Below, piece by piece: positions 13,926 through 56,531 of a DNA stretch of 64,000 bases. The DNA is taken from assembly GCF_001894865.1 (NCBI RefSeq), contig NZ_BCXA01000041.1:1-64000 (forward strand). The letters are read 5' to 3'. This DNA comes from Rhodococcus maanshanensis NBRC 100610. GTDB taxonomy: Bacteria > Actinomycetota > Actinomycetes > Mycobacteriales > Mycobacteriaceae. Position numbers and translations under genes: made by a program. A model generated the notes under the pieces. That model did no database searches. It was not told where the DNA came from and saw only the letters and a list, made by a program, of their open reading frames with translations. Numbering within the stretch: the stretch's first letter is position 1; every line of letters starts with the position of its first letter.

Positions 13926-14120
13926 TTCGGAACCTCTATTCCAAGGAACAAAAACCCAATCCAGAAAAGACTCAGGCATACCGAACTCGTTGTTCAACAA
14001 AGAGGCGACTTCATCATCTGTCGTAGACTGGAGGTATGCCGATCGGGCCGAATTCGACTAGGTGATGAATCCGCTCGAGATCGGCGATCATGGCCGCCGA
14101 AATGTCATCTGACACAACTG
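13926..14120 (-). pseudogene. Frameshifted relic of a PKS C-terminal docking domain
   Basis: Directly upstream of the minus-strand PKS start are two minus-strand frames that together resemble a PKS docking tail. The upstream frame, with ATG at 14091, reads [15 protein letters not shown] and ends in tandem TGA codons at 14016-14011. The downstream frame, open from about 14055, reads [20 protein letters not shown] and runs into the PKS gene. The acidic DDE...LLNNEFG ending closely resembles [12 protein letters not shown] at the end of the + strand PKS. I infer the decayed 3' end of a PKS gene that once preceded this one in the same orientation. It has no usable start of its own. Confidence 0.55.
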
Positions 14121-22984: not shown

Positions 22985-23020
22985 GCGGCATCGGATCGCC
23001 GCACACGATCGGGAGGCTTG

Positions 23021-31086: not shown

Positions 31087-32022
31087 TCAGCTCAGGTAGC
31101 CGCCGCCGTGCGGGAAGAACTCCTTGCCGGTCATCTCGGTGCCGTCGTCGAGGCGCACGCGCTCGATCGACAGGCCCCGGTTGCGGCCGCTCCACGCGTC
31201 GGGCCCGGCGACGATGACCATGCCGTCGCCCTCGTGGATGAAGACCCGGCCGGGGGTGCCGCCGTAGCAGCCCTTGGACACCGAGGACTCGAGGACGCGG
31301 ATGCGCTGGCCCTTGAAGTGGGTGAACGCGTTCGGGTACGGGTCGGACTGCGCGCGGACGAGTCGCTCGATGGCCTCGGCGGGCCAGGTCCAGTCGATCC
31401 GGCTGTCCTCCGCGGCGCGCTTGTGGAAGAAGGTGGCCTGCGACCGGTCCTGCGGCGTCCAGTCCGTGCGGCCGGACTCGATCAGGTCGAGGGCGTCGAC
31501 GGTGATCGGGCCGATCATGTCGACGGTCCTGTGGAACAGGTCGGTGACCGTGTCCTTCGGGCCGACCGGGGTGCTGCGCTGCAGGATGATGTCGCCCGCG
31601 TCGAGCTCCTCGTCCATCAGGTGCGCGGTGAGGCCCACCTCGGGCTCGCCGTTGATCAGCGCCCAGATCAGCGGGGAGAACCCCGTGTACTTCGGCAGCA
31701 GGGAGTCGTGGATGTTGAGGGTGCCGTAGCGGGGGGCGTCGAAGACGTCCCGCGGCAGCCAGGTGCGCCAGTTGTTGGCCACGATGATGTCGGGGTCGGC
31801 CTGCTTCAGGGCGGCCTTGAAATCCTCGTCGGGCTTGTTCGCGATGTGCACCGGCACCCCGTGCTCGGCGGCGAGGTCGGCAACCGAATCGGCCCACATC
31901 CGCTCGTAGGCGTGGTCGCTCTTGGGGTGGGTGATCGCAAGTACCACCTCATGTTTGGAATCCAGCAGCGCCTGCAGGGTACGGTGACCCCAGGTCTGGT
32001 ATCCGAGCGTGGCGACTCTCAA
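31087..32022 (-). CDS. N10-formyltetrahydrofolate-dependent formyltransferase (N-hydroxyornithine formylation)
   Basis: About 311 residues with the methionyl-tRNA formyltransferase fold. The catalytic Asn-His-Asp set is visible in LNIHDSLLPKYTG and HLMDEELDAGDI. It should transfer a formyl group to the delta-hydroxylamine of N5-hydroxyornithine, giving formyl-hydroxyornithine (fhOrn). This fits the nearby ornithine monooxygenase and an NRPS whose first A domain carries an fhOrn code. TTG at 32022 was chosen over ATG at 32049 because AGGAGG lies 6 nt upstream and the protein then starts MRVATLGYQTWG, as related enzymes do. An iron box lies ~50 bp upstream, shared with the divergent hydrolase gene. 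Confidence 0.9.
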   Translation of the reverse strand: MRVATLGYQTWGHRTLQALLDSKHEVVLAITHPKSDHAYERMWADSVADLAAEHGVPVHIANKPDEDFKAALKQADPDIIVANNWRTWLPRDVFDAPRYGTLNIHDSLLPKYTGFSPLIWALINGEPEVGLTAHLMDEELDAGDIILQRSTPVGPKDTVTDLFHRTVDMIGPITVDALDLIESGRTDWTPQDRSQATFFHKRAAEDSRIDWTWPAEAIERLVRAQSDPYPNAFTHFKGQRIRVLESSVSKGCYGGTPGRVFIHEGDGMVIVAGPDAWSGRNRGLSIERVRLDDGTEMTGKEFFPHGGGYLS

Positions 32023-32074
32023 CGGGTTCCTCCTGGACGAGCGCGACATTTGCCGTCGAGTGATCGACGCGGGG

Positions 32075-32093
32075 CTAGCTTAGGCTATCCATA
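32075..32093. promoter_or_regulatory. Iron box between divergent formyltransferase and hydrolase genes
   Basis: Read on the - strand, TATGGATAGCCTAAGCTAG matches about 14 of 19 positions of the IdeR/DmdR consensus. It sits centrally between the two divergent starts (32022 and 32141), so one site could repress both genes when iron is plentiful. Confidence 0.7.
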
Positions 32094-32140: not shown

Positions 32141-32941
32141 ATGCCCCTCGCCACGATCAATGGGATTCAGCTGAATTACCAGGTCAAAGGCTCAGGAGAC
32201 CTGGTCGTCATGATCATGGGGACCGGCAGCCCCGGCCGGGTGTGGGACCTCCACCAGGTTCCCGCGCTGCTCGCCGCTGGATATCGCGTGTGCACCTTCG
32301 ACAACCGTGGCATCGCCCCGACCGACGAGTGCGCGGACGGCATCACCATCGAGGACATGGTCGCCGACACCGCTGCGCTGATCGAGCACCTCGGGGGCCC
32401 GGCCCACGTGATCGGCACCTCGCTCGGCGCCCGCGTCGCGCAGGAGCTCGCGCTCGCGCGCCCCGAACTGGTTCGCAAGGCAGTCTTCCTCGCCGCGCAC
32501 GGCCGCCGGGTCGCGCTGCAGAAGGCGCTGTCCGAGGGGGAGCGGGAACTCGACGCGCAGGGCATCACGCTGCCTGCGAGCTACCGGGCCGCGATCACCG
32601 CGGTGCTCAATCTCTCGCCCGCCTCGCTGGTCGATCAGATGGCGGCCCAGGACTGGCTGGATATCTTCGCCTTCTCCAAGGCCGAGACCAGCCGCGGCGT
32701 GCGTGCCCAGCAGAACCTGGACGACTTCGGCGACCGCCTCGCGGCCTACCGCCGGATCACCCGGCCCTGCCTGGCGATCGGGTTCGCCGACGACCGGTTG
32801 GTGCCGCCGCATCTGGCCGCCGAGGTGGCCAAGGCCATTCCGGGGGCGAACTACGTGGAGCTGCCCGAGTGCGGCCACTACGGTTACCTCGAGCGCCCCG
32901 ACGCGGTGAACTCCGCGATCCTGGACTTCCTCACCGGCTAG
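32141..32941 (+). CDS. Alpha/beta-fold hydrolase, iron-regulated
   Basis: A 266-residue alpha/beta hydrolase. The nucleophile elbow is IGTSLGARVA (Ser in GTSLG), the oxyanion region is MIMGTGSPGRVW, and the catalytic His is in ECGHYGYLERPD. There is no signal peptide, so it acts in the cytosol. Sharing an iron box with the formyltransferase puts it in the siderophore pathway. Plausible roles are a type II thioesterase that clears or releases NRPS intermediates (the NRPS has no TE), or a hydrolase that opens the ferri-siderophore. Sequence alone does not decide. Its 3' end overlaps the convergent MerR gene by 4 bp. Confidence 0.82.
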   Translation: MPLATINGIQLNYQVKGSGDLVVMIMGTGSPGRVWDLHQVPALLAAGYRVCTFDNRGIAPTDECADGITIEDMVADTAALIEHLGGPAHVIGTSLGARVAQELALARPELVRKAVFLAAHGRRVALQKALSEGERELDAQGITLPASYRAAITAVLNLSPASLVDQMAAQDWLDIFAFSKAETSRGVRAQQNLDDFGDRLAAYRRITRPCLAIGFADDRLVPPHLAAEVAKAIPGANYVELPECGHYGYLERPDAVNSAILDFLTG

Positions 32942-35842: not shown

Positions 35843-35885
35843 CAAGTCCCGCACCGAAAATCCCCGCCAAGCACCGGGTAGTTTG

Positions 35886-35902
35886 CCTACCCTAAGGGTA
35901 GG
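35886..35902. promoter_or_regulatory. Second palindrome overlapping the NRPS iron box
   Basis: CCTACCCTAAGGGTAGG is a perfect inverted repeat with 8-bp arms around a central A. It overlaps the iron box at 35897-35915 by six bases. It may be a second repressor subsite or the site of another regulator. Confidence 0.5.
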
Positions 35903-35915
35903 TAGCCTATCCTAA
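35897..35915. promoter_or_regulatory. Iron box before the siderophore NRPS
   Basis: GGTAGGTAGCCTATCCTAA matches about 13 of 19 positions of the IdeR/DmdR palindrome; the right half (CCTAnCCTAA) is nearly perfect. It lies 51 bp before the NRPS ATG, so the NRPS should be repressed by iron. Confidence 0.75.
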
Positions 35916-35966: not shown

Positions 35967-38900
35967 ATGTCTTCTCCCTCGGACTCGACGGCACTCCCGC
36001 ACGCCACCGGACAGTGGCTTCCCGTCACCGCCGCCCAGTCCGAGGTGTGGGTCGCGCAGCGGCTCGCGCCCGCCAGCCCGGCCTACAACATCGCCCTGAC
36101 CGTCGAGGTGAACGGGCCGCTCGACATCGCCCGCGCGGTCGAGTCCGTGTACATGACGATCCGCCGGGCCGAGGCGCTGCACGTGCGGTTCGCGGTCGGG
36201 GCCGACGAGGTGCTGCGGCAGCAGCGACTCGATCCCGAGGGGTGGACCCTGCGGATCATCGATCTGCGTGGCAAGCAGGATCCCGCCGCCGCGGCCCGCG
36301 CGTGGGTCGAGAACGACATGCAGACCGTCGCCGAGTTGGAGAGCGACGAGCCGCTGTTCACCCAGGCGATCCTGCGGATCGACGACGAGCTCACGTGGTG
36401 GCACCAGCGCTACCACCACAGCATCGTCGACGGCTATGGAGTCGTGTTGCTGGTCGCCGAGGTCGTCGGGCGGCAGGAGCATCCCGATCTGCTGTTCGAC
36501 GAGCAGGACTGGTCGCTGCAGACCGCGATCGACGAGGACGCCGAGTACCGCGGCTCCGGTCGATACGACGCGGACCGGGCGCACTGGCTGGAGTGGCTGG
36601 CCGACGCCCCCGAACCCCCTGTGCTGCTGCCGCCTTCGCCGGACCCAACCGCGCCGCCGATCAAGGCCACCGTCGAACTCGATGCCGAGACCGTTGTCGG
36701 GCTGTTCCGGTTCGCCGACGCCCAGGACATCCGGCGCACCCGCATCCCGTTCGCGATGATCGCCGCATACCTGCACCGGGTCAGCGGCCAGACCGACCTG
36801 ATGCTGTCGGTGCCGTTGACCGGTCGCACCGGTAGGGCGCTCCGGAACCTGCCGTCGATGGCCTCGACCATCCTGCCGATGCGGCTGCAGGTGAACGGGG
36901 ACAGCACGCTGGCCGCGCTGGCGGCGCACATCGACAAGGGGCTGATCGGCCTGCTCCGGCACGGTCGCTACCGGGGCGAGGACCTCGCCAGGGAGGTGCG
37001 CGCGCTCGACCCGTCGCGGCGCCTGTTCGGTCCCGGCGTGAACATCGTGATGTTCGAGCATCCCATGACCTTCGGCGGCAGCCCCGCATCCGCGCAGAAC
37101 ATGGTCACAGGTGCGATCGGCGAGCTGGACTTCACCGTGCAGGGTGGCCAGGAGGGCCAGTCGATCCGGATCGACCTGCGCGTCGGAGCGGGTCTCGGGG
37201 ACGAACTCGAGCGGCACCGTCAGCAGTTCACCGAGTTCATCGGTCAGCTCGCCGCCGCGCCCGACGCCCCGATCTCGCGATTCGACGTGATGTCGGACGT
37301 GCAGCGGCGGCAGGTGCTGGTGGACTTCAACGACACCGCCCGGCCGCAGCCCTCGCACACCGTGCCCGAACTGTTCGCGGCGCAGGCAGCGGCGACCCCG
37401 GACCGGGAGGCGCTGATCGCGGGCGAGGTCCGGCTCACCTATCGGGACCTCGGCGCGCGCGTGAACCAGCTCGCGCGGCACCTCACCGAGCGTGGACTGG
37501 CGCCGGAAGAAGTTGTCGCGGTGGGCGTTCCGCGCTCCGCCGAGATGGTCGTCGGGCTGCTCGCGGTGATGACCGCAGGCGGCGCCTTCGTGCCCCTCGA
37601 CCCGGCCTGGCCGCAGGACCGCCGCGACCAGGTGCTCGCGGACGCAGGCGCACGGCTGGTGCTCACCGGCCCGGGCGGGGTGCAGGCCCCGCCGGAGTCG
37701 GGGGTGGCGGTGGATCTTGCCGATTGGGCGCACGCGGGTCAGTCGGCGGATCCCCTCGGCGCCGAGATCGCGGGCCAGTCACTGGCCTACGTCATCTTCA
37801 CCTCCGGTTCCACCGGCAGGCCCAAGGGCGCGATGATCCGGCACGAGGCGATCTGCGCCCGGTTGCTGTGGCAGGTCGAGGAGGTGCTCGGGTTCGGCGT
37901 CGACGACGCCTCGCTGTTCAAGGCGCCGCTCTCCTTTGACATCTCGGTCAACGAGATCCTGCTGCCGCTGGTCTCCGGTGGCCGGCTCGTGGTCGCCGAG
38001 GCGGGCGGCGAGCGCGACCCGCACTACCTGCTCGATCTCATCGAACGCGAGCGGGTCACCTTCGTGTACCTGGTCTCGTCGATGCTCAGCGTGCTGCTGG
38101 ACCTGGCCGAGGGCGGCCGCTCGCTCGACGGCCTCCGGCACGTCTGGTGCGGCGGCGAGGTGCTCACGCCGGAACTGTTCGACCGGTTCCGGCGCAGGCT
38201 GAGCACCACGTTCTATCACGGCTACGGCCCCGCCGAGGCGACCATCGGTGTCTCCCATGTGATCTACCGCGACCGGGCCGAGCGGATCGCATCCTCGATC
38301 GGCAGGCCGAACCCCAACACCCAGCTGTACGTGCTGGACTCGCAGCTGCGGCCGGTGCCGCCGGGAGTCGGCGGCGAGCTGTATGCCGGCGGCTACCTGC
38401 TCGGCCGCGGCTACGTCGGCGCAGCCGCGCTGACGGCCTCGAGGTTCATCGCCAACCCGTTCGCCGAGGACGGCTCCCGGCTCTACCGCACCGGTGACCT
38501 CGCGCGGTGGGCGGAGGACGGCAGCCTCGACTTCATCGGCCGCGCCGACAACCAGGTCAAGATCCGCGGCATGCGCCTCGAGCTCGAGGACGTCGAGGCC
38601 GCCCTCGCTTCGCACCCGGGCGTCCGCGACTGCGCGGTGCTGGTGCGCGAGAACAACGGGTCCAAGTACCTTGCGGGCTACGTGGTCTCGCACGCGGACC
38701 ACGCGGCGCTGACCTCCGACGAGGTGCGGGCCTGGGCAGCGGCCAAGCTGCCGGAGTACATGGTGCCCACCGCGGTGCTGGTCCTCGACGAGTTCCCGTT
38801 GACCGCGAACGGCAAGCTCGACCGGCGGGCGCTGCCGGAACCGGATCTGCGCGCCGCGCTGCCCGGGCTGGCGCCGCGCACCGAGCGTGAGCAGCAGCTG

Positions 38901-41900
38901 TGCGCCATCATCGCCGGGGTGCTCGGCGTCGACAGCGTCGGCGTCACCGACGACTTCTTCGCGCTCGGCGGCGACAGCATCGTCGCCATCCAGCTGGTGA
39001 ACCACGCGCGTGGCGCCGGCCTGAACTTCAGTGCCCGCGAGGTCTTCCAGCTGCGCACCGCGGAGGCCCTCGCCCGCGAGATCGAGGGACGCGCCGAGGC
39101 GTTGGTGGACCGGCTCGACGTGCCGCTCGGCGAGGTCCCCGCGACGCCGATCATCGCGCACACCAGCGAGTCCGGCGAGGCCGTCGCCCGGTTCCACCAG
39201 TCGGTGCTCGTGCAGACGCCGATCGGGTTCCACGAGGACGCGGCGCGCGCGGCACTGGCCGCCGTGATCGAGCGCCACGATGCGCTCCGCGCCGCGCTGG
39301 TACGTGGCGAGCGCTGGACGCTGTCAGTGCCCGAGACCGCAAGCGAGACTGCCCTGCTGCGCAGGATCGACGCGGAACACCTGACCTCGGCCGAGCTCGA
39401 TGCCGTGGTTTCACGCGAAACAATCGATGCCGCAGCGCGACTCGACCCCGACGCGGGCGTGATGCTCGTGGCGGTCTGGTTGGACGGCGGGGCGGACCGC
39501 CCCGGGCGGCTGCTGCTGGTGGTCCACCACCTGGTGGTGGACGGTGTGTCCTGGCGGATCCTGATCGAGGACCTGGCCAGGGCTGGATCGGCGGCGACGG
39601 CCGGCATTCCGGTCGAGCTGGCCCCTGTCGGCACCTCGCTGCGCCGGTGGTCCCAGCTGCTGTCCGAGCGGGCCGAATCCGGTGCGTTCGACGGCGAGCT
39701 CGACCACTGGCTCTCGGTGGCACGGACGGCGGACCCCGCACTCGGCTCGCGGGCGCTCGATCCGGCGCTCGACCGCTGCGGCGCAGCCGAGTCGATCACG
39801 GTGAGTCTGGCGCCCGAGTTCACAGGCCCGCTGCTCGGGGCCGTACCCGCCGCGTTCGGCGGTCAGGTCGGCGACGTGCTGCTCACCGGGCTCGCGGCCG
39901 TGCTGGCGGACTGGCGGGGTCAGGCCGGTTCCGGTGCCGGTTCATCCGGCACGCAGGTGGTCCTCGACCTCGAGGGCCACGGCCGCGAGGAGGACGCCGC
40001 GGGCAGGCCGGTCGACCTCGGCCGCACCGTCGGCTGGTTCACCAGCCTGTACCCGGTCCGGATCGACGCGGGTGCGCTCGCGGACAGCCTCGACCCGGCC
40101 GCGCTCGGCGCGGCGGTGAAGGCGATCAAGGAGCAGCTGCGGGCAGTGCCTGGCAACGGCATCGGCTACGGCGCGCTGCGGTACCTGAGCTCCTCGGGTG
40201 CCGAGCTGGCAGGCGGCGTCACCCCGCAGGTGCTGTTCAATTACCTGGGAAGGGTTTCCGCCTCCGAGGGGGCGGACTGGCTGCCGATCGCGATGGACGG
40301 CGCCAATGACCCCGACGCGCCGATGGGCCACGCCATCGAGTTCAACGCGATCGCGGAGGACGGACCCGACGGGCCCACGCTCCGCACCACCATCACCTGG
40401 GCACCCGGGTTGTTCCCCGCGGCGCGGATCGCCGCGCTGTCGGAGGCCTGGACCGCGGTGCTGCGTGCGCTCGCGGCCAGCGCCCCGTTCGGCGGCCACA
40501 CCCCCTCGGACTTCCCGCATGCGCGGCTGGGCCAGGCGGACGTGAGCCAGATCGAGGCCGCGGCCGCCGACCTGGTCGACGTGCTGCCGATGACCCCGCT
40601 GCAGGAGGGCATCTACTTCCACAGCGCGTTCGAGACCGAGCACTCCGATCCCTATGTGGTGCAGCAGATCATCGAGCTGACCGGGCCGGTGAACCCGCAG
40701 GCGCTGCACGCCGCGCTGCAGACGGTCGTTGACCGGCACGCGGCGCTGCGCACCGGGCTGCGCGCGGTGTCCGACGGCCGGGTGGTGCAGGTGGTCTCCG
40801 GCGACGCCCGCGTCCCGATGGAGACGGTCGACCTGCGGGGACTGAGCCGCGACGAGGCCTCGTCGCGGGTCCGGCAGATCCTCGCCGACGAGCGGGTGCG
40901 CGGCTTCGACCTCGAGCAGGCGCCCCTGCTGCGGTACGTGCTGGTGCGGCGGGACGGGGCGAGCGAAGCGGGGGAGGCGACTGCGGACGAGCACCTGCTG
41001 CTGCAGTCGATCCACCACATCGTCGCCGACGGCTGGTCGGTACCGGTGATGCTCCGTGAGCTGATGGCGCTGTACGCGCCCACCGGTTCGGCACCCGCGG
41101 CGCTGCCCGCCCCGGAGCCGTACCGGAACTACCTGGGCTGGTTGGGCTCCCGTGACCGGGAGGCGTCGATCGAGGTGTGGCGTGCCGCGCTCGCAGGCGT
41201 CGACGAGCCGACCGGGCTCAGCAAGGCCGAGCGCGGCACCGAGGTCGGTGTCCGCGAGGTCAAGGTCAACCTGTCCGCGGCGCAGACCGCGGACCTCATC
41301 GCGTTCGGACGCGCTCGCGGCCTGACGCTGAGCACCCTTGTGCACGGCGCATGGGGCCTGCTGCTCGGCCGGCTCACCAAGCGCCGGGACGTGCTGTTCG
41401 GCTCGACGGTCTCCGGTCGGGGAGGCGACCTGCGCGGCATCGAGACCATGGTCGGTCTGTTCATCAACACGGTGCCCGCCCGGTTGCGCTACCGCGCGGA
41501 GGAATCCGTCGCCGCCGCGCTGACCCGTTGGCAGGACGAGCAGTCGAGGCTGCTCGAGCACCAGTACATCGGCCTGAGCGAGCTACGCAGGCTGACCGGG
41601 CTGCAGGAGCTCTTCGACACCCTTGTGGTGTTCGAGAACTACCCGATCGGTGAGGGCGCCGTCGCCGATCCGACCGGCACGCTGGAGATCACCGGCATCA
41701 CCTTCGAGGAGAACCCGCCGTATCCGGTGACGCTGATCGTCGCGCCCGGCGACGAGCTGCGGCTGGAGGTCAAATATCAGGCCGCGGTGGTCGACTCGGC
41801 CACCGCCGACCGGTTGGCCGACGGCATGGTGTCCTTCCTCGGCGAGCTGGTGCGTGACGGCGACCAGCCGATCTCCGCGCTGGCGCTGGTGACCGAGGCC

Positions 41901-44900
41901 GAGCGGGACGAGCTGGAGGCGAGCTGGGCCGCATCCATCGGATCCGCCGAAGCCCGTACCCTCACCGACCTGCTCGACGAGCAGGTCGCGCGCACCCCGG
42001 ACGCGGTCGCCGTCGAGTTCGAGGGCCTGTCGCTGACCTACGCCGAGCTGCACGCGCGGTCGAACCGGCTGGCGCGCCAGCTCGTCGACCGCGGGGTCGG
42101 ACCGGAGTCGCTCGTGGCCGTCGCGCTCGGCCGTTCGCTCGAGCTGATGGTCGCGCTGCTGGCCGTCGGCAAGGCAGGCGGCGCCTACCTGCCGCTCGAC
42201 CTCGACTACCCGGCCGACCGGTTGTCGTACATGCTGGCCGATGCCGAGCCGGTGTGCGTGCTCACCGACGGCCAGCCGTTCGAGACCGGGCTGCCGGTGC
42301 TGACGGTGGATCTGTCCGAGCCCATGGGGGATTCGGATGTGCCGCAGGCGGTTGCCAGGGCCGTGGCGGGCAATCCCGCGTACGTCATCTACACCTCGGG
42401 TTCGACCGGCAGGCCCAAGGGCGTGCTGGTGTCGCACGAGGCCATCGTCAACCGGCTGCTCTGGATGCAATCGGAGAACCCGCTGGCGGTGGGGGACCGG
42501 GTGCTGCAGAAGACGCCGTCGAGCTTCGACGTCTCGGTGCCGGAGTTCTTCGGGCCGTTGATCGCCGGGGCCACCGTCGTGCTGGCCCGGCCCGGCGGAC
42601 ACAAGGATCCGGGATACCTGGCCGGCCTGATCTCCGAACGCGGCATCAGCCGTGCGCATTTCGTGCCGTCCATGCTCGACCTCTTCCTGGCCGAGCCGGG
42701 CGCCGTCGCATGCACCGCGTTGCGGGTCGTCGCCTGCTCGGGTGAGGCGCTGTCCGCCGCAGCGGCCCGGCGCTTCGCCGAGGTGCTGCCCGGCGTCCGC
42801 CTGGACAACCTCTACGGGCCCACCGAGGCCGCGGTCGAGGTGAGCTACTTCTTCGGGGCACAGGCGCTGTCCGCGTCGGCGCACAGCGTGCCGATCGGCG
42901 CGCCGGTCGCCAACACCCGGCTGTACGTGCTCGATCAGTACCTGAACCCGGTGCCGCCGGGCGCCGAGGGGGAGCTGTACCTGTCCGGGCCGCAGCTCGC
43001 CCGCGGCTATCTGGGCCGCGCCGCGCTGACCGGGGACCGGTTCGTGGCCGACCCGTTCGTCGCAGGCACCCGGATGTACCGGACCGGAGACCTGGTGCGG
43101 TCCGTGGACGGTGAACTCGAGTACGTCGGCCGCGCCGACGACCAGGTGAAGCTGCGCGGCTTCCGGATCGAGCTCGGCGAGATCGAGGCTGCGCTGCTGG
43201 CCGATCCGTCGGTGGCCCAGGCCGCCGTCCTGGTGCGCGAGGACCGCCCAGGCCAGCAGCGCCTGGTCGCCTACGTCGTGCCCTCCGGGCCCGTGAGCAC
43301 TTCCGGCCCGCAGGGGGACCAGAAGTACTCACAGGCGCTGGCCGCCTCCCTGCCGGAGTACATGGTGCCCAGCGCCTTCGTGGAGCTCGACGCGTTGCCG
43401 CTGAGCCCGAGCGGCAAGCTGGACCGCAAGGCCCTGCCCGCGCCGGACTTCTCCGTCGCGGTGTCGGAGGCCGCCCCGAGCTCGGGCACGGAGGGACGCA
43501 TCGCCGCCCAGTTCGCCGAGGTGCTCGGCCTGGACCGGGTTGGCGCGGGAGACGACTTCTTCACCCTCGGCGGCGACAGCATCCTGGCGATCCGGCTGGT
43601 GAACCTGGCCCGCCGCGACGGCGTCACGCTCACCCCCCGCCAGATCTTCGAGCAGCGCACCCCGGCCGCCATCGCGCGGTTGGTCGGCGAGGCGGCCCCG
43701 GTCGCGGAGGCGGCCACGCCCGGCGCACCCGTCGCGGACGGCGTCGGCGAGGTCATCCCGCTGCCGGTGGTGCACCGGCTCTCCGAATGGTCCGGCGGCA
43801 CCGACCGCTTCAACCAGGCCGTGCTCCTGTACACCCCGGCAGGCGCCGACGAGCGCGGCCTGACCGCGGCGCTGCAGGCGCTGCTCGACCACCACGACGG
43901 CCTGCGCGCCCGGTTGACCCGGCACGCACCCGGCGTGTGGTCGACGGTGACCACCGAACCCGGTTCGGTGGGCGCCGCCTCGATCTTCACCGCCGTCGAC
44001 GCCCGCGACCCGGAGTCGCTGCGCGACATCGTGACCGAGCACTCCGACGCGGCGACCGACCGCCTCGACCCCGAGTCGGGGGTGATGCTGCAGGCGGTGT
44101 GGTTCGATGCCGGACCGGAGACCACCGGCCGCCTCCTGATCGTCGCGCACCACCTCGTGGTCGACGGGGTGTCCTGGCGGATCCTGCTCGAGGACCTCGC
44201 GATGGCGAACGTGGCGTCGGCATCCGGCCAGGATGCGGCGCTCGATCCCGTCGGCACCTCCCTGCGCGGGTTCGGCCGGATCGTCGCCGAGCAGGCCCAG
44301 GGCGCCGAGCGCCTCGCCGAGCTGGCGCACTGGTCCGACGTGACCGCGCCGGGAGCGGCGCTGGTGCCGGAGGTCAGCGGTCACGCGACCATCGGAACCG
44401 GCTCCCAGCACCGGATTTCGCTCTCCGTGGACGACACCGCCGCCGCCTTGACGACCGTGCCCGCGCTGGCGAACGCCGACGTGACCGACGTGCTGCTCAG
44501 CGCGCTGCGGATCGCGGTCAGCCGCTGGCACCGCGACACCGGCCGCGCCGCGTCGGACCTGCTGGTCGACCTAGAGCGGCACGGTCGCGAGGAGCTGGCG
44601 CCTGGCGTTGACCTGTCCCGCACGGTCGGCTGGTTCACCAGCATCAGCCCGGTCCGGCTGCGGGCGGGCGACCGGCCGCTGGATGTGCTCAAGGACGTGA
44701 AGGAGCGGCTGCGGGACGCGCCCGACGGCGGCATCGGCTACGGCATGCTGCGGTACGCGAACGCCCGCACCGCCGCCCTGCTCGCCGCCCGCGCGGAGTC
44801 GCAGGTCCTGTTCAACTACCTGGGCAGGATGCCGTCGGCGGATCTCGGCATCTCGGTCCCGTGGGCCCCCGCCCCCGAGACCGGTGCGCTGTCAACCGAT

Positions 44901-47900
44901 CCCGACGCCGACATGGGCGGGCCCTACCTGCTGATCGTCAACGCGATCTGCGAGGACACCGCCGAGGGTCCGGTGCTGACCGCGAACTTCGGCCGCTCCG
45001 AGCTGGGGCTGACCGAGGCCGACGGTGAGGCGCTGAGCCAGGGCTGGGCGCAGGCGCTGCGCGAGCTCGTCGAGGTCGCGGCGCGCCACGACGGTCCCGG
45101 TGCGCTGACGCCGTCCGACGTGCCGCTGGTGACGCTGACCCAGGCGGAGCTGGACCTGATCGCCGAGCGCAGCCCGGCTGGGGTCGACGCGGTGTGGCCG
45201 CTGTCCCCGCTGCAGGAGGGCCTGTACTTCCAGGCCACCTTCGACGAGGGCGCCGACATCTACACCGCGCAGTTCTCGCTGGACTTCGCGCACCGGCTCG
45301 ACATCGAGCGGCTGGCCTCGGCGCTGCGCACCCTGCAGCGCCGGAACCCGACCCTGCGTGCGGGATTCCTCAGCGACGGCCTCGCAGCGCCGGTGCAGTT
45401 CATCACCGCGGACCTCGACGTCCCGATCGTCGAGTTCGACCTGCGCGAGCTGACGGAGGCCGAGCGTGAGGCCCACGCCGCCGAGCTGATGGCCACCGAC
45501 CGGCTCGCCCCGTTCGACCTGACGGCGCCGCCGCTGTGGCGGGCAATGGTGATCCGCCTCGGCGACGACCGCGACCGCCTGGTGGTCAACCGGCAGTTCC
45601 TGCTCTGGGACGGCTGGTCGAACGGCATCGTCGTCAGCCAGCTGCTCGCGCTCTACGAGGCCGCGGGCGACGACAACGGGTTCCCGACCCCGACCGGCGG
45701 TTTCGACGACTACCTGGGCTGGCTGCGCGACCGCGACAGCGAGACCGGGCGGACTGAGTGGCGGCGCGCGCTGGCCGGTCTCGAGGAGCCGACCCTGCTC
45801 GGGTCGGCCGTGGCCGGGGCCCCCGCGCTGCCCGGCCGCCGCGACACCGTGCTCACGGCCGAGCTGAGCGAGCGGCTGCGGGCCAGGGCGTCGGCCACCG
45901 GGGTCACCTTCAACGCCGTCCTCAGTGGCGCGCTCGCGCTGGTACTCGGCGCCGCGACCGGCCGCGACGAGGTCGTGTTCGGCATCACCGTCGCGGGCAG
46001 GCCCCCCGAGGTCGAGGGCCTCGACACGGTGGCCGGACTGTTCCTCAACACCGTCCCGGTCCGCACCACCCTGCGTCCGGCGGAGCGGGTGGAGGACCTG
46101 TTGCGGCGCAGCCAGTCCGAGCGCCTCGGCCTGATGCCGCACGACTATCTCGGACTGGCCACGATCGGGCGCGAGTCCGATCACCGTCAGCTCTTCGACG
46201 TGCTCTACGTGCTGCAGAACTTCGTCGACGAGAACCAGGTGTCGGCGCTCAACAGCGCGCACGACATCAGTGGCGGCGACAGCGTCGACCACACCCACTA
46301 CCCGCTGACCGTGGTGGTGACACCCGGCAACCGGGTGAAGATCAAGTTCGAGTTCCGCCCCGAGGCGGTGGCCGAGTCGACGGTCGAGTCGATGCTGGCC
46401 CGGTTCGTCGGGCTGCTCGAACTGTTCGCCGACGACGTGTCCGCACCGGTCGGGTCGCTTGACCTGTCGCTGCCCGGCGAGCGCGCGGCGCTGACGGCAG
46501 GCTCGACCGAGCGGGAGCTGCCCGAGTCCACCATCGCGGACCTGTTCGCGGAGGCGGCCGCGCGCACCCCGGACGAGGTCGCGCTGGTGTTCGGCTCGCA
46601 GTCGGTGACCTACCGAGACCTCGACGGCCGGATCAACGCCATGGCCCGGCTCCTGCTGGCACACGGTGCCGGTCCGGAACAGATTGTGGCGCTTGGCCTC
46701 CCGCGATCGGTGGAGATGGTCGTCGCGCTGTTCGCGGTGCTGCGCACCGGGTCGGCGTACCTGCCGCTCGAGCTGGATCACCCGGCGGAGCGACTGCTCG
46801 GGATGCTCGAGGATGCCGGGCCGGTGGCGCTGGTGACCACCGTCGCGGTCCGCGAGACCCTCGCCGGTTTCGAGGGCGCGGCGATCGTCCTCGACGACGG
46901 CGCGAGCCGGGAGCACGGCACCGGACCGCTGACCGACGCGGAGCTGGGCGGCTTCGCCCCAGGCACCCCGGGGCGGCTGGACCACCCGGCGTACGTCATC
47001 TACACCTCCGGCTCGACGGGCAAGCCCAAGGGCGTGGTCACCGGGTACCGCGGCCTGACCAACATGCAGTTCAACCACCGCGCGGAGATCTTCGACCCGA
47101 CGATCTCGATGACCGGCGGTCGACGCCTCCGGATCGCGCACACGGTGTCGTTCGCCTTCGACATGTCGTGGGAGGAGCTGCTCTGGCTCGTCGAGGGACA
47201 CGAGGTGCACATCTGCGATGAGCACCTGCGCCGGGACGCGGAGGCTCTGGTCGCGTACTGCAATGCCAACGCCATCGATGTCGTCAATGTGACGCCGACC
47301 TACGCGCAGCACCTGTTCGAGGAGGGTCTGCTCGGCGACGGTCCCGGCGAGCATCGGCCGCCGCTGGTGCTGCTCGGCGGCGAGGCGGTGCCGGATTCGG
47401 TGTGGAGCAGGCTGCGGGACACGGAGGGGACGTTCGGTTACAACCTGTACGGCCCAACCGAGTACACGATCAACACGCTCGGCGGCGGCACGTCGGACTC
47501 GGCGACGCCAACGGTCGGCAAGCCGATCTGGAACACCCGCGCCCACATCCTCGACTCGTGGCTGCGCCCGGTCGCGGACGGGGTGGCAGGCGAGCTGTAC
47601 ATCGCGGGCATCGGCCTGGCCCGCGGCTACCTGGACCGCTTCGGCCTGACCGCCGAGCGTTTCGTGGCCGATCCGTTCGCGGCGGGCGGCCGGATGTACC
47701 GCACCGGTGACCTGGTGCGGCGCGGCGCCGACGGCAACATCGACTTCCTCGGCCGCACCGACGACCAGGTGAAGATCCGCGGTCACCGCGTCGAGTTGGG
47801 CGAGATCGAGTCGGTCCTGGCCGGCCTCGACGGGGTGCGGCAGTGCGCCGTCATCGCGGCGCCCGGCCCTGGCGGCGTCAAGCGGCTGGTCGCCTACGTC

Positions 47901-50900
47901 GTGCCCTCCGGGCCCGTGAGTGGTTTCGGCCCCGATGCGGGCCAGAAGTACTCACAGGCGCTGCGCGCCAGCCTGCCGGACTACATGGTTCCCGCGGCCT
48001 TCGTGCCGACCGACACCCTGCCGATGACGGTGAACGGCAAGCTCGACGTGCGAGCGCTGCCGCCGGTGCCGGACGCGGTCGGCTCGGGCTCACGCGCGCC
48101 GGCCGACCACATCGAGCAGGCGCTGTGCGAGCTGTTCGGTGAGGTGCTCGACGTCAGCGAACTCGGCGTGGCGGACAGCTTCTTCGACCTCGGCGGGCAC
48201 TCGCTGCTGGCGACCCGGCTGATCAGCCGGGCCCGGTCGGCGCTCGCGACCGAGCTGACCATGCGGGACCTCTTCGAGGCGCCAACCGTTGCGGAACTGG
48301 CGGAGCGGGTCCGGGCACGGGGCCAGGCGGTACGCCCGGTGCTGGCGCCGATGGACCGGCCCGAGAACCTGCCGATGTCGTCCGCGCAGCAGCGGCTCTG
48401 GCTGATCCAGCAGATCGAGGGGGAGTCCGCCGCGTACAACTTCCCGATCGTGTTGCGCCTGAAGGGCGAGCTCGACGCCGGGCTGTTCGCGACCGCGCTC
48501 GCGGACGTGGTCGGCAGGCACGAGTCGCTGCGCACCGTGTTCGGAGAGGTCGACGGCCTGCCCGTGCAGCGGGTCCTCGACGAGGCGACCCCGGAGCTGA
48601 CGGTGGTGGACGGTACCGAGGCCGAGATCGCGGGCCTGGTCCGCGGCGCCGTGCTGCGGCCCTTCGACTTGACCCGCGAGATCCCGGTGCGCGGCACCGT
48701 GATCCGGCTGGACGCGCACGATCACGTCCTCGCACTGGTGCTGCACCACATCGCCACCGACGAGTGGTCGGACCGGCCGTTCCTGCGCGACCTGATGCTC
48801 GCTTACGCCTCGAGGGCGCACGGGCAGGCACCGCAGTGGGAGCCGCTCGCCGTGCAGTACGCGGACTACACGCTCTGGCAGCGTGAGCTGCTCGGTGACC
48901 CCACGGACCCGGATTCGGTACTGAGCGAACAGCTCTCGTACTGGGAGCGGACGCTGTCCGGTGCGCCGGAGGAGCTGACGCTGCCCACCGACCGGGCCCG
49001 GCCCGCGCGGCCGAGCTTCGCGGGCGGGGCGATCGAACTGGACCTGGATCCGCGTACCACCGCGGCGCTGCGGGCGCTGGCGGCCGACAGCGGCGCGAGC
49101 ATGTTCATGGTGCTGCACGCCGCCGCCGCGGCGCTGCTGCACCGCATCGGCGCGGGCGATGACCTGCCGCTCGGTGCGCCCATCGCGGGCCGCACCGAGC
49201 AGGGCCTCGACGAGCTGGTCGGGTTCTTCGTCAACACGTTGGTGCTGCGCACCGACGTGAGCGGCAACCCGACGTTCGGTGAGCTGCTGGCCCGGGTCCG
49301 CGAGCTCGACCTCGCGGCGTTCAGCCATGCCGACGTCCCGTTCGAATCCGTTGTCGAGCGACTGAACCCGGCCCGCACGCTGGCAAGGAACCCCCTGTTC
49401 CAGGTGATGGTCGGCTACCACAGCCGGACCGCCGACCTCACGGAGCTGGGCGGGCTGACCCTCGAACCGGTGCCGCTGCAGGAGCGGACCGCCAAGTTCG
49501 ACCTGGTGTTCAACTTCACCGAGTTCCTGGACGAGGATCGGATCGCGCTGCGCCTCGAGTTCGGCGCTGACCTGTTCGACCGGTCGACCGCCGACGCGAT
49601 CGCGCACCGCCAGCTGGCGCTGCTCGATGCCGTCGCACAGGAGCCGTCGATGCCGATCGGCGCGGTCGACGTGTTCCTACCGGGCGAGCGGAACCTGGTG
49701 CTGGTGGACTTCAACGACACCGGCAGGCCGGTGCCGGAGGAGACCCTCGACGCCTCCTTCGCGCGCTGGGTCGCGGCAACGCCGGACGCGGTGGCCGCGC
49801 TCGACGAGCACGGCAGCGCGACCTACGCCGAGCTCGACGAGCGGTCCGACCGGATCGCCGCGGTGCTCGCCTGCCTCGGCGTCGGTGCGGAATCGGTGGT
49901 GGGCCTTGCTGTTCCGCGTTCGGTGGACATGGTCGCCTCGGTGCTGGCCGTCCTCAAGCTGGGTGCGGCCTACCTGCCGCTCGACCTGAGCCACCCCGCG
50001 GACCGGATCTCGTACATGCTGGTCGACTCGAACGCGGGGGTGCTGCTGAGCACAGCAGCGGAGTCCGCGCGGATCGAGGAGGTGCCGGGCCTGCGCCGGG
50101 TGCTGCTCGACGAGCCGGACGTCGTCGCGGAGCTCGCCTCGGCGGGGAGGCCGCTGACCGTGGTGCCCGCGGGCATCGATCACGCGGCCTACGTCATCTA
50201 CACCTCCGGGTCCACCGGCAGGCCGAAGGGCGTGGTGGTCTCCCACGAGGGCATCTCCAGCCTGGTCGCCACCGCCGAGGACCGGATGCGACTGGTGCCG
50301 GGTTCGACTGTGCTGCAGTTCGCCTCGGTCGGGTTCGACGTCGCGGTGTTCGAGCTGTCGATGGCCCTGTGCACCGGGTCGCGTCTGGTGATCGTGCCGG
50401 ACCGCTCGCGGGTCGCGGGCCCGGAGCTGACCGACTTCATGCACGAGCACGAGGTGACGCACGCGATCATCCCGCCGTCGCTGATGGCCGCGCTGCCGCC
50501 GGGCGCCCTGGTGCCCGCGGGCTGCACGGTCCTGGTCGGCACCGAGACCGTGCCGCCGGACCTGATCGGGCGGTGGGCGGAGCGGCTGAATCTGCTGGCC
50601 GCCTACGGCCTCACCGAGGCGACGGTGAACAACACCCTGTGGCAGGCGCAGCCGGGCTGGAACCAGGCCGTGCCGATCGGCATCCCGGACCCCAACGAGC
50701 AGGCGTTCATCCTCGACGCGCGACTGCGGCCGGTTCCGGTCGGCGTCGCGGGGGAGCTGTACATCGCCGGCCGCGGGCTGGCCCGCGGCTACCTCGGCAA
50801 GCCGGCGTTGACGGCGGGGCGTTTCGTCGCCAACCCGTTCGGCCCCGGCCGGATGTACCGGACCGGTGACCTGGCGCGCTGGCGGGCCGAGGGCAATATC

Positions 50901-52781
50901 GACTTCCTCGGCCGCGTCGACGACCAGGTGAAGATCCGGGGCTTCCGCATCGAGCTCGGCGAGATCATCGCTGCGCTCGCGGACAGCGAGGGCGTCAACC
51001 AGTCCGCGGTCGTCACCGACCGGGACGGGTCGATCGCCCGGCTGATCGGGTACGTGGTGCCGTTCGAGGGCGCGGTGGTCGATCCGGCCGCGGTGCGCGC
51101 CCACGTGGCGTCGTCGCTGCCGGACTACATGGTGCCCAGCGTGGTCATCGTGCTCGACGGGCCACTGCCGCTCACGCCGAACGGCAAGCTCGACCGTAAG
51201 GCGCTTCCCGCGCCCGACTGGTCGGAGCTGACCGGCGACGTCGCGCCGCGGACCCCGAGGGAGCGGGTGATCGCGGACCTGTTCGCGGAGATCCTGCACC
51301 TGCCCTCGGTCGGTGTGCACGACAACTTCTTCGACCTCGGCGGTCACTCGATGGCCTCGATGCAACTGGTCGGCCGGGTGCGCACCGAACTCGGTGCTCA
51401 GCTGAGCATTCGGGAGGTCTTCGACGCACCGACCGTCGCGGAGCTCGCCGAGCTGACCGAGGCGGACAACGGTGAGGGCAGGCCCGCCCTGCTCGCGGGC
51501 GCGTCCCGCGACGGCGCTGCGCCGCTGTCGCCGCCGCAGCGCAGGCAGTGGCGGATGTACCGGGAGTCGCCGACCGCCAGCCACGCCCTCTCGCTCTACC
51601 CGGAGCGTCGTCTCGACGCCGAGTCGCTGGCGCTGGCCCTCGACGACGTGGTCTCGCGGCACGAGCCGCTGCGCACGGTGTTCTTCGAGCGCGAAGGAGT
51701 GGTGTACGGCCAGGAGGCGGTGCGGCCTCAGGTCGGGCTGGTCGATGTCGGCGACGGCGATCTGCACGCGCGGGTTTTCGAGCTGGCCCAGCAGCCGATG
51801 GATCTCACCGAGCAGGCGCCGCTGCGGGTTCAGCTCGTGGAGGACTCGTCGGGTCGCCAGGCCCTGCTGCTGGTGATGCACTACCTGGCCGTCGACGAAT
51901 GGTCCGTGGTGCCGTTGCTCGGCGAACTGCTCGCCGGCTACCTGGCGCGGCAGGCGGGACACGCGCCCGAACTGCCGCAGCTGCCGGTGACCTATGGCGA
52001 CTACGAGGCGTGGTCGCGGCAGGTGCTCGGCGACCCTGCGGACGAGTCGAGCAGGCATGCAAGGCAACTCGCGTACTGGCGGGAGCGGCTGTCCGGACTG
52101 CCCGAGGCCATGAGCATGCCGGGCGTGAGGCCGGGTGGTCCCCGCCGCGGCGACGTGGTGCCGCTGCCGATCGATGAGTCGCTGCATCGCGAGATCGACG
52201 CGCTCGCCCGTCGGACCGGAACCTCGATGTTCATGGTGTTGCAGTCGGCGCTGGCCGTCGCCCTCACCGAAGCCGGTGTGGGCGAAGATCTTCCGATCGG
52301 GGCCCTGGTGGCCGGCCGGACCGAGGAGGCGCTGTCCGGGTTGATCGGCTGCTTCTTCAACACGGTGGTGCTGCGGACGGACACCTCGGGTGAGCCGACC
52401 TTCGCTGAGTTGCTGGCCCGGGTCCGGGAGAGCAACCTGTCCGCGCTCGAGCATCAGGATGTCGGATTCGATGACGTGGCAACCGATCTCGGTGGCGATG
52501 CGCTGCGGCCTCAGGTGATGGTCGTGCACCACGAACAGGCGCGCCTCGGCGAGCTGGACGGAGTCTTCGGTGGCCTGCTGCCGGTTCCGGTCGGCGAGCC
52601 GGTGTCGGACCTGGCGCTGAGCTTCTACGAGCCGGTGGGCGATGGCCCCGTGCACGCCTACCTCGGCTACCGGACCGACGTGCTCGAGCCCGCCGTCGTG
52701 TCCGCGCTGGCGGATCGGTTGCTGGCCCTGCTGGCAGCCGCGTGTGCCGACGCGGATCGCCGGATCGGGGTGACCGAGTGA
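35967..52781 (+). CDS. Giant four-module hydroxamate siderophore NRPS
   Basis: A 5604-residue synthetase. Domains with landmark residues: C1 (HH 150-151), A1 (TSGSTG 612), T1 (Ser1004), E1 (HH 1187-1188), C2 (HH 1683-1684), A2 (2143), T2 (Ser2538), E2 (HH 2728-2729), C3, A3 (3680), T3 (Ser4079), C4 (HH 4260-4261), A4 (4746), T4 (Ser5128), C5. Specificity codes read by aligning motifs to GrsA: A1 DINYWGGIG and A3 DMENLGLIN equal the codes I recall for the formyl-hydroxyornithine and hydroxyornithine modules of coelichelin synthetase CchH; A2 DVPHASLVE is Ser-like; A4 DVFILGAVN is unassigned. Expected core: D-fhOrn, D-Ser, L-hOrn, X. C3 reads QFLLWDG (Phe3211) and C5 reads HYLAVDE (Tyr5306) instead of HHxxxDG. 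No TE; the protein ends with C5. An iron box lies upstream. Confidence 0.94.
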
Positions 52782-52802: not shown

Positions 52803-52821
52803 TTAGGGTAGGCTGCGCTAC
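52803..52821. promoter_or_regulatory. Iron box before the ornithine monooxygenase
   Basis: TTAGGGTAGGCTGCGCTAC matches about 14 of 19 positions of the IdeR/DmdR palindrome, with the left half nearly perfect. It lies in the 131-bp gap after the NRPS, giving the monooxygenase and mbtH genes their own iron-responsive promoter. Confidence 0.72.
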
Positions 52822-52912: not shown

Positions 52913-54298
52913 ATGGATACGACTCTCTCGGCCGCTGACCGCGACCAGTCGCCGACCTACGACCTGGTCGGTGTCGGCTTCGGGCCGTCCAACCTGGCGC
53001 TGGCCATCGCCATCGAGGAGCACAACGCGAAGTGTGCCCCCGGGGACCGGATCGAGGCGCGCTTCCTGGAGAAGCAGGACCACTTCCGCTGGCACCCGGG
53101 CATGCTGCTGGACGGCGCGACCATGCAGATCGCGTTCCCGAAAGACCTGGTGACCTTTCGGAACCCGGCCAGCTCGTTCAGCTTCTTCTCCTACCTGTTC
53201 GACAAGGGCCGGCTGGTCGACTTCGTCAACCACCAGACCTTCTTCCCGACCCGGCACGAATTCAACGACTACCTGCAGTGGGCAGCGGGCCGGGTGGACG
53301 CGGACGTCAGCTACGGCACCGCGGTCACCAAGGTTCGGGGCGAGACCGGCGCCGACGGCGCGGTCGACGAGTTCACGGTCGAGACCGCCGACGGCGCGCA
53401 GGTCCGGGCCCGCAACCTCGTCGTCGGGGCCGGCCTGCGGGAGCGGATCCCGGAGTGGGCGACGCCGTCGGCGCGCTGCTTCCACAATCACCAGTTCCTC
53501 TTCCGGGTCGACGAGCTGCCCGAGCTCAAGCACCAGCGGTTCGTGGTGCTCGGCGCGGGCCAGAGCGCGGCCGAGGTGGTCCAGTACCTGCACCGCAACT
53601 ACCCGCAGGCCGAGGTGCACAGCGTGTTCTCCCGCTACGGCTACAGCCCGGCGGACGACAGCCCGTACGCGAACCGCATCTTCGACCCCGGCGCCGTCGA
53701 CGAGCTGCACGGTGCCGACAGCACCGAGCGCGAGCGGATCCTGTCCCTGCACAAGAGCACCAACTACTCGGTGGTCGACATCGAGCTGATCAACGAGCTG
53801 TACACCACCGAATACCAGGAACTGGTGCGCGGCCAGCGGCGCCTGTTCATGCGCAGGGCCTCCGAGATCGACGGCGTGGTCGAGACCGAGGAGGGCATCG
53901 AGGTGAGCGTGCGCAGCAACCTCGACGGCCTGACCGACTCGCTGATGTGCGACGCGCTGGTGCTGGCCACCGGGTTCACCCCCACCCCGCTGAGCAACCT
54001 CATCGGCGACCTGGCCCCCGAGGGCGGGGTCGCCACCGAGGTGGACCGCGATTACCGGCTGGTCACCCCCGAGAACGTCCGCGGTGGCATCTATCTCCAG
54101 GGCGGCACCGAGAAGACGCACGGCCTCACCTCGTCGCTGCTGTCCAATGTCGCCGTCCGCGCCGGTGAGATCCTGAATTCTGTGCTGGAAAATCGCCCCG
54201 ACCACGGCGATCTTGATAGGGTCGAGGCGTCCGCTGGGGCGGAAACCTCAGCGCGGGAAACACCGATGAACGAATTTGCGACAAGCGAGGCCAGATGA
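52913..54298 (+). CDS. L-ornithine N5-monooxygenase (siderophore hydroxylase)
   Basis: A 461-residue class B N-hydroxylating flavoprotein that converts L-ornithine to N5-hydroxyornithine with FAD, NADPH and O2. The FAD site is [15 protein letters not shown] (residues ~17-31), the NADPH site is [16 protein letters not shown], and the C-terminal motif is [14 protein letters not shown]. Ornithine is preferred over lysine because the NRPS carries fhOrn and hOrn codes. The product either goes directly to A3 or is formylated by the enzyme at 31087-32022 for A1. It has its own iron box and overlaps mbtH by 4 bp (ATGA). Confidence 0.93.
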
Positions 54299-54534
54299 GC
54301 ACCAATCCCTTTGACGACGAAGACGGCCGTTTCTATGTGCTCGTCAACGACGAGGACCAGCATTCGCTGTGGCCGACGTTCTCGGACGTCCCGCAGGGGT
54401 GGCGTGTGGTGTTCGGTGAGGACAGCCGCCAGGCGTGCGTCGAGTACGTCGAGGCCAACTGGACCGACATGCGCCCGAAGAGCCTGCGTGAGGCCATGGA
54501 ACGCGACGCTGCCGAGCGCGGAAACCAGAGCTGA
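54295..54534 (+). CDS. mbtH: MbtH-like NRPS chaperone
   Basis: A 79-residue MbtH-like protein. The family signature is complete: [24 protein letters not shown], then [17 protein letters not shown], with the conserved Trp residues. MbtH proteins bind adenylation domains and support their folding and activity, so this one most likely serves the four A domains of the nearby NRPS. It is translationally coupled to the ornithine monooxygenase. The gene ends 31 bp before the convergent ThrE gene. Confidence 0.96.
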
Positions 54535-56008: not shown

Positions 56009-56009
56009 G

Positions 56010-56384
56010 TCAGGACACCGCGTCCGCTTCGCTCAGATCCGTTGCCGCGAAGGCAGATTCGAGGTCAGTGTGCCGGAAGATCGACGTCACCTGATCGTGC
56101 ACAACGCGGAAGGCGGTGGCGACCGTCGCCTTCTCGTCCGGCTTCGAGGCCCAGCTGGCCTCCTCCTCGACCACGACGACGCCCTCGTGCACGAACATGC
56201 GTCCGGCGATCAGGGTCAGCCCGGACTCGGAGGCCCACTCGCGCAATGCGGTGAGGCCCTGCCCGGCACCTTCCGGGCCGGCCACCTCCACGTCGTCGCT
56301 CGAGAGTGCGAGGAGGGTGTCGATGTCGGAATCGTTCAGTGCGTCGTGCCACGCGAGGACCGTGGCGATCTCCGAGGTGCTCAT
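56010..56384 (-). CDS. NTF2/SnoaL-like small protein
   Basis: A 124-residue protein with the SnoaL/NTF2-like cone-fold pattern: N-terminal helix EIATVLAWHDALNDSDIDTLLALSSDDVEVAGP, then GLTALREWASESGLTLIAGRMFVHEGVVVVEEEASW and FRVVHDQVTSIFRHTDLESAFAA. Such proteins are ligand-binding folds or enzymes of many kinds; no catalytic residues can be assigned. It sits one base ahead of the ThrE-like gene on the same strand and forms an operon with it. The upstream side faces the multicopper oxidase gene divergently. Confidence 0.82.
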   Translation of the reverse strand: MSTSEIATVLAWHDALNDSDIDTLLALSSDDVEVAGPEGAGQGLTALREWASESGLTLIAGRMFVHEGVVVVEEEASWASKPDEKATVATAFRVVHDQVTSIFRHTDLESAFAATDLSEADAVS

Positions 56385-56531
56385 GCGTCCACGCTATCGG
56401 TTTCCGGCCGCGGAGGGCGTGCATGGGGCCTGCGCCTTTTCGGGTGCGACCGCCGGACCAGCGAACTAGGCTTTGAGGCGCTGACGCTGGAGCGCCGGTG
56501 CTCGCATTCGTTCCGGAACGAGGCGGCAAAG

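Follow-up and report, generated by a model that had tools for sequence, protein, structure and literature searches.

Within a 64,000-nucleotide stretch of the Rhodococcus maanshanensis NBRC 100610 genome (contig NZ_BCXA01000041.1, positions 1 to 64,000; hereafter the window), one gene encodes a nonribosomal peptide synthetase (NRPS) of 5604 residues. We consider this enzyme to be, probably, the Rhodococcus (rhequichelin-type) representative among erythrochelin-type synthetases, in which the third condensation (C) domain, C3, would form a hydroxamate on the δ-N-OH group of hydroxyornithine and the terminal C domain, C5, would release the product as a diketopiperazine. The NRPS has orthologues that share its architecture, adenylation codes and surrounding gene set, its C3 belongs to a distinct clade, and its terminal C domain is of a Tyr type; the bond types and the release step are what we infer. 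Synthetases of this kind are known; what makes the present one interesting is the C-domain subtype of C3, which lacks the His and is linked to hydroxyornithine.

Domain order and condensation motifs of the synthetase

Positions 35967-52781 (+) form a single uninterrupted, stop-free frame of 5604 residues. Pfam detected in its product seven condensation-type stretches (five C and two epimerization, E), four adenylation (A) and four thiolation (T) domains; none of the five pieces scanned matched a thioesterase (TE) family at E ≤ 0.001. The host genome (5.67 Mb) yielded 97 condensation-type matches, and the NRPS lies on the contig numbered C41. Pfam and profile scans bear out the architecture given in a preliminary description of the sequence, namely four modules with E domains after modules 1 and 2, an N-terminal C domain, an additional A4/T4, a terminal C5 and no TE:

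35967..52781, + strand: NRPS, 5604 aa, C1A1T1E1-C2A2T2E2-C3A3T3-C4A4T4-C5, no TE (reading of the open reading frame (ORF) plus Pfam/profile scans)
36018..37316, + strand: C1, N-terminal C domain, both His present; probably N-acylates residue 1
37374..38816, + strand: A1, code DINYWGGIG, coelichelin-type (formyl-hydroxyornithine)
39186..40478, + strand: E1
40578..41915, + strand: C2, canonical HHIVADG
41973..43418, + strand: A2, code DVPHASLVE, Ser-like
43782..44822, + strand: E2
45192..46493, + strand: C3, Trp-Asp-Gly clade, putatively hydroxamate-forming
45588..45614, + strand: C3 motif NRQFLLWDG, residues 3208-3216, His-free
46545..48041, + strand: A3, code DMENLGLIN, hydroxyornithine type
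48366..49691, + strand: C4, HHIATDEWS, His pair intact
49758..51188 (start approximate), + strand: A4, code DVFILGAVN, acyl-hydroxyornithine type
51516..52766, + strand: C5, terminal C domain, HYLAVDEWS, putatively diketopiperazine-releasing

The codes of A1, A2 and A4 were taken from alignment columns and that of A3 by direct reading of the motif that contains FDMSWEE. A MAFFT column that gave W as the third letter of the A3 code was discarded as a local misalignment, the direct reading being E.

C1, C2 and C4 keep the His-His pair of the HHxxxDG motif, and C2 and C4 thus carry the second His of a canonical elongating C domain, which C3 lacks. The preliminary description had placed Phe3211 of C3 and Tyr5306 of C5 at the second-His position; both assignments stand, but the loss in C3 is larger than described, with Gln3210 and Phe3211 replacing the two His residues. 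C5 reads HYLAVDE from residue 5305, i.e., His5305-Tyr5306. Since the C3 His is missing in all 25 relatives with the full architecture (22 with Gln, 3 with Glu), its absence is not a matter of chance. C5 in the same relatives reads His-Tyr in 22, Gln-Tyr in one and His-His in two.

C3 is predicted by AlphaFold to have a confident fold. The end of the preceding strand is equidistant from the motif Asp in the models of C3 (residue 135 and Asp140) and C2 (residue 146, the first His, and Asp151), which favours the ungapped reading with Phe3211 at the catalytic His place, a local bulge being possible. The alternative reading HHxxxxDG, with an extra residue and Gln3210 at the catalytic place, had been prompted by His-containing relatives and is disfavoured by this equal distance. 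The helix after the motif begins one residue past Asp in C3 and three past Asp in C2, so the post-motif loops of the two domains differ. Under either alignment, no His occupies the catalytic place in C3.

C domains that precede hydroxyornithine-type A domains

In all 82 loci first collected (loci are numbered L), the C3-like domain reads Trp-Asp-Gly, the frame in this table having been chosen by the presence of WDG, so that Trp was partly selected for; a count free of this selection gave Trp before Asp-Gly in 159 of 166 domains, Phe in 5 and Leu in 2. Downstream in the same frame, 81 of the 82 loci have a hydroxyornithine-type A domain, L103 being the exception. The fetched regions taken together hold 172 distinct C domains directly before a hydroxyornithine A domain. 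One hundred of them have His at the first-His place and a hydrophobic residue at the second; the first place is otherwise Gln (52), Glu (12) or Arg (2), and five domains are canonical and one is unread. C domains preceding other A domains are canonical in 362 of 407 cases (31 unread, 14 misread). Since most of the C domains in this count come from regions fetched by C3 similarity, it was repeated with loci collected by A3 similarity, in which 32 of the 36 readable domains showed the shifted motif and 4 the canonical one. The A3-based sample comprised 38 of 61 places (the 30 best and 8 chosen loci), including the window NRPS; L263 is without a C domain, the C domain of L247 is cut and misread, and the count excludes L131 (Arg, shifted) and L272 (canonical), the inclusion of which gives 33 of 38.

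The domains with the canonical motif belong to two kinds of assembly line, both named by architecture: fuscachelin-like with Gly, Gly, Ser, hydroxyornithine (L122-L124, L265) and heterobactin-like with Gly-hydroxyornithine (L272). We take hydroxyornithine to be acylated on the α-N in products of these two kinds and on the δ-N in coelichelin, exochelin MS and erythrochelin. On these structures, the C motif would track the nucleophile and not the amino acid.

The preliminary description had suggested a C-domain phylogeny, and the tree was computed from 80 rows after the motif columns, L272, L273 and a long outgroup row had been removed. C3 falls in a well-supported clade of 67 (100/99), together with coelichelin-type C3 domains (L129, L266 and L268) and with domains of the exochelin and erythrochelin types. 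The coelichelin- and exochelin-type domains (12 rows) form a group at 100/100 that is sister (97/98) to a group of 27 that has also lost the neighbouring His (98/93) and to which C3 of the NRPS belongs, and the rows of this group span Nocardiaceae, Frankiaceae, Kineosporiaceae, Kribbellaceae and Pseudonocardiaceae. The four canonical hydroxyornithine-preceding C domains in the tree, of the five found, all lie outside the clade. On this tree, the neighbouring His would have been lost once, with Gln, Glu and Arg interchanged afterwards. In an earlier tree, the Saccharopolyspora erythraea C3 (L136) groups with other His-keeping rows. Besides its place in the clade, C3 of the NRPS has Trp before Asp-Gly and a DMEN A domain downstream. 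Further residues mark the clade (Asp3203, Trp3214, Asn3316, Pro3346, Leu3360, Arg3386 and Thr3443), each present in at least 62 of the 67 clade rows versus less than 15% of 70 canonical domains.

Other His-free forms were seen alongside these. In L273 (genome G719), the C domain LTSELILLDGWS precedes a hydroxyornithine A domain; Glu stands where the His is expected, Trp is absent, and the domain forms a long branch outside the clade, so its Glu would represent a separate His loss. Arg at the His place occurs in two family genomes, as SRRFLLWDG (L131) and SRRFLVWDG (L264). A second His-less family (L049, L052, L055, L056, L061, L063) consists of an NRPS of 4.0-4.1 kaa with a 2.3-kaa partner; its C motif is NREFILWDG or NREFIVFDG (DREFILWDG in L056) and is followed by a hydroxyornithine A domain and then by Ser-type and DAWEGGLVD modules. 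This family also occurs in R. triatomae (L202) and R. globerulus (L192).

In the open-licence literature searched, we found no description of a His-less C domain before hydroxyornithine and no paper containing the two code strings. The link between the His-less motif and the hydroxyornithine acceptor, and the further His loss that we propose for this lineage, were likewise not met there. According to the excerpt of PMC4786211 consulted, Glu239 is likely to distinguish A domains that take oxidised ornithine, such as that of the exochelin synthetase FxbC.

Terminal C domain, orthologues and gene neighbourhood

Among the terminal C domains of hydroxyornithine synthetases, 73 of the 111 rows listed were readable; Tyr occupies the second-His place in 66 of them, and 57 read His-Tyr, including L136. 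The rows dropped were 14 cut C4 pieces (of 21 His-His rows), five SHQH pieces, L062, the misread L143, L197, L215, L218 and L227, and 13 unread rows. C5 of the NRPS is, by motif reading, of the same Tyr type as the terminal C domain of EtcD.

C3 searches were run over three overlapping genome sets (151 from the family, 397 from the order and 394 from the class), and the named-genome scan covered the best 80 of 511 relative-encoding stretches (523 in total). The closest C3 domains among those listed are from R. tukisamuensis (96% identity) and R. oryzae (94%). Of 33 family regions fetched, 25 have the full architecture, 7 a shorter one and 1 an exochelin-like one; all 18 regions with a C3 identity of at least 64% have the full architecture, and the terminal C domain is present in 18 of 18. 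The codes of A1, A3 and A4 are unchanged in the 25 full-architecture relatives, and that of A2 is Ser-like but variable. Orthologues with a species name come, among others, from Prescottella (Rhodococcus) equi DSM 20307, R. jostii, R. erythropolis, R. opacus and R. koreensis, and their A2 codes differ too (DVP.ASLVE in P. equi versus DVL.SSLVD in R. jostii; A2 of the NRPS equals that of P. equi). This pattern agrees with the excerpt of PMC5550956 consulted, in which the rhodochelin/rhequichelin cluster is reported from 11 Rhodococcus strains and three of its four A domains are conserved, the second being the variable one.

The NRPS has the features of the rhequichelin type, i.e., the full domain order, the formyl-hydroxyornithine, Ser-like, hydroxyornithine and DVF codes, and a formyltransferase, an ornithine monooxygenase and an MbtH nearby. 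The P. equi DSM 20307 synthetase (L163), identified as the rhequichelin gene by organism and by the description in the PMC5550956 excerpt and not by locus tag, has the same 15-domain order and, as far as read, equal codes; its C3, 71% identical to that of the NRPS, contains NRQFLLWDG, its C5 contains His-Tyr, and a formyltransferase, hydrolase, monooxygenase and MbtH lie nearby as in the window. The S. erythraea protein L136 (EtcD by architecture), from a genome that also encodes an erythronolide-synthase docking domain within a 3577-aa frame, resembles the NRPS in domain order, modules, Ser-type A2, DMEN A3, an A4 code of the common pattern DVFxLGAVN (DVFALGAVN versus DVFILGAVN) and a His-Tyr terminal C domain (HYLGIDEWS). 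It differs in A1 (DVWALGAVN versus DINYWGGIG), so that the NRPS is without the EtcD-type A1, and in its C3 motif THHLVLWDG, which keeps His. The extra module and the His losses, which the preliminary description presented as a puzzle of this enzyme, are thus shared by relatives, and that view has largely given way: L136 shares the extra module and the His-Tyr form of the terminal C domain, and P. equi L163 has the full set including the Gln-Phe C3.

The codes of A1 and A3 and the Ser-like A2 are as the preliminary description stated, and A1 and A3 match those of coelichelin CchH-type proteins (L129, L266-L270, by architecture), which also have E domains after modules 1 and 2. These proteins, in contrast, have three modules, a Thr-type A2, the C3 motif SYHLLLWDG and neither an N-terminal nor a terminal C domain; coelichelin is an unlikely product of the NRPS, as already suggested in the preliminary description. 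CchH, in the excerpt of PMC9854754 consulted, activates formyl-hydroxyornithine, Thr and hydroxyornithine and has no integral TE. Exochelin-type proteins (L133, L150, L151, L154, by architecture) have a longer line with two such C domains, each before a DMEN A domain, and retain His just before the hydrophobic residue. One exochelin-type module code we take as β-Ala-like.

The genes and sites around the NRPS are as follows:

23018..26517, + strand: ABC transporter pair (membrane and ATPase domains), also near orthologous clusters
31087..32049, - strand: formyltransferase, probably for hydroxyornithine formylation; in 8/8 orthologous loci tested
32075-32093: iron-box-like site between the formyltransferase and the hydrolase
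32141..32941, + strand: alpha/beta hydrolase, in 8/8 orthologous loci tested
35877..35915, - strand: two adjacent iron-box-like sites, 13/19 each (weak), upstream of the NRPS
52803-52821: iron-box-like site between the NRPS and the monooxygenase
52913..54298, + strand: L-lysine/L-ornithine N-monooxygenase family protein, downstream of the NRPS, in 8/8 orthologous loci
54295..54534, + strand: MbtH-like protein, in 8/8 orthologous loci

The ABC pair is complete at seven of the eight orthologous loci and cut by the fetched edge at the other. The S. erythraea locus has the monooxygenase, MbtH and ABC pair, and no formyltransferase or hydrolase within the fetched flanks (13.0 + 8.5 kb). The full IdeR-type box search gave no match, and a looser iron-box pattern gave 2 sites versus 0.02 expected; similar sites occur at several orthologous loci in a scan at 13/19 or better, which is weak since shuffles yield 0 to 6. 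A promoter and terminator scan upstream of the NRPS found none.

PF13523, the hydroxyornithine-acetyltransferase-like family, has one match above the cut-off in the host genome (37.8 bits), on another contig. Since this is the only such match and a formyltransferase gene lies near the NRPS in 8/8 loci, formyl-hydroxyornithine is the likelier unit for both A1 and A4. The A4 code, however, resembles that of L136, so residue 4 may be either formyl- or acetyl-hydroxyornithine.

Elsewhere in the window, a 480-aa protein (54566-56008, -) lies beside MbtH, as in 8/8 orthologous loci. Reading of translations showed a large polyketide-synthase-like ORF at 7710-14000 (-) and, at 14598-16085 (+), a 495-aa ORF resembling its C-terminal hydrolase-like end. 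A long frame at 55800-59711 (+), probably with its true start further in, gave a multicopper-oxidase-like match in its later portion.

Proposed assembly and its alternatives

We propose that D-formyl-hydroxyornithine from module 1, possibly α-N-acylated by C1, would be linked by C2 to D-Ser. C3 would then transfer the D-Ser carbonyl to the δ-N-OH, not the α-amine, of T3-bound hydroxyornithine, generating a second hydroxamate, and C4 would make an ordinary peptide bond to the acyl-hydroxyornithine on T4. A hydroxylamine serves well as a nucleophile and is mostly in the unprotonated form at neutral pH, so the catalytic His would be dispensable in the C3 clade. Acylation of the δ-N-OH would leave the α-amine of residue 3 free for ring closure, and its attack on the T4 thioester within the C5 pocket would release a six-membered diketopiperazine, so that no TE would be needed. 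By analogy with erythrochelin, a 2,5-diketopiperazine siderophore (excerpt of PMC7752772), we regard the terminal C domain as the natural site of this closure. Among the explanations offered in the preliminary description, hydroxylamine as the nucleophile and release by C5 thus fit best, and module skipping finds no support. The wider proposal of a hydroxamate-forming actinobacterial C subtype that has a hydrophobic residue at the place of the canonical His, and in which the neighbouring His is dispensable and was lost once in a Rhodococcus/Frankia ancestor since an N-hydroxylamine needs no general base, seems to us evenly balanced.

Several points weigh against the proposed assembly. Seven of the 73 terminal C domains retain His-His, two of them in window-type proteins (L037, L040). 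C3 of S. erythraea has His-His one place upstream, and its chemistry may therefore differ in detail. The δ-N linkages in coelichelin, exochelin MS and erythrochelin are assumed here, and the coelichelin- and exochelin-type proteins were assigned by architecture. Rhodochelin we take to be a mixed catecholate-hydroxamate with an ester bond, not erythrochelin-like. The R. jostii member is put under rhodochelin in the excerpt of PMC5550956, and that of PMC9854754 gives coelichelin a composition with two Thr, unlike the structure that we assume. The alpha/beta hydrolase, kept in 8/8 loci, could release a linear peptide.

This last point belongs to an alternative that we regard as unlikely, in which C3 is an ordinary, atypical C domain forming an α-peptide bond with support from Gln or a neighbour, C5 is a relic, and the iron-regulated hydrolase frees a linear tetrapeptide. 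The hydrolase gene does adjoin that of the formyltransferase in the window, an iron-box-like site lying in the gap, and it is present in 8/8 orthologous loci and not in the fetched S. erythraea flanks; moreover, the second His of one terminal C domain that has been studied helps to position the substrate (excerpt of PMC10587159). However, the C3 clade is almost wholly tied to hydroxyornithine acceptors, with the canonical hydroxyornithine-preceding C domains outside it, and a relic C5 is at odds with its retention in all 18 family matches of at least 64% C3 identity. Somewhat less probable still is that the products of the orthologues differ and that C1 here takes an aryl or acyl starter, giving a rhodochelin-like mixed product and not a formyl analogue of erythrochelin. 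In the PMC5550956 excerpt the clusters of R. jostii and R. equi are placed together, that of R. jostii being attributed to rhodochelin, and the A2 codes of the two species differ; yet A2 of the NRPS has the P. equi code, not that of R. jostii, and four A domains already fill the chain.

A dead C3, with module 3 skipped or hydroxyornithine coupled in trans to give a shorter or non-linearly assembled product, is in our view highly improbable. His is missing from both motif places, but one would expect a domain without function to degenerate, and the His-lost form is inherited across five families with Trp-Asp-Gly and the other clade residues kept, a confident predicted fold and an adjacent hydroxyornithine-type A domain; we rejected it on these grounds.

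If the δ-N assignment holds, a hydrophobic residue at the His place together with Trp before Asp-Gly would predict δ-N versus α-N joining from sequence, and whether a hydroxyornithine module makes a hydroxamate or a peptide bond would be readable from its C domain, a rule that we did not find in the literature searched. The clade would also offer a natural experiment on what the HHxxxDG His does, having lost it while the nucleophile changed. For Rhodococcus, the conserved cluster would be predicted to make a formyl analogue of erythrochelin.

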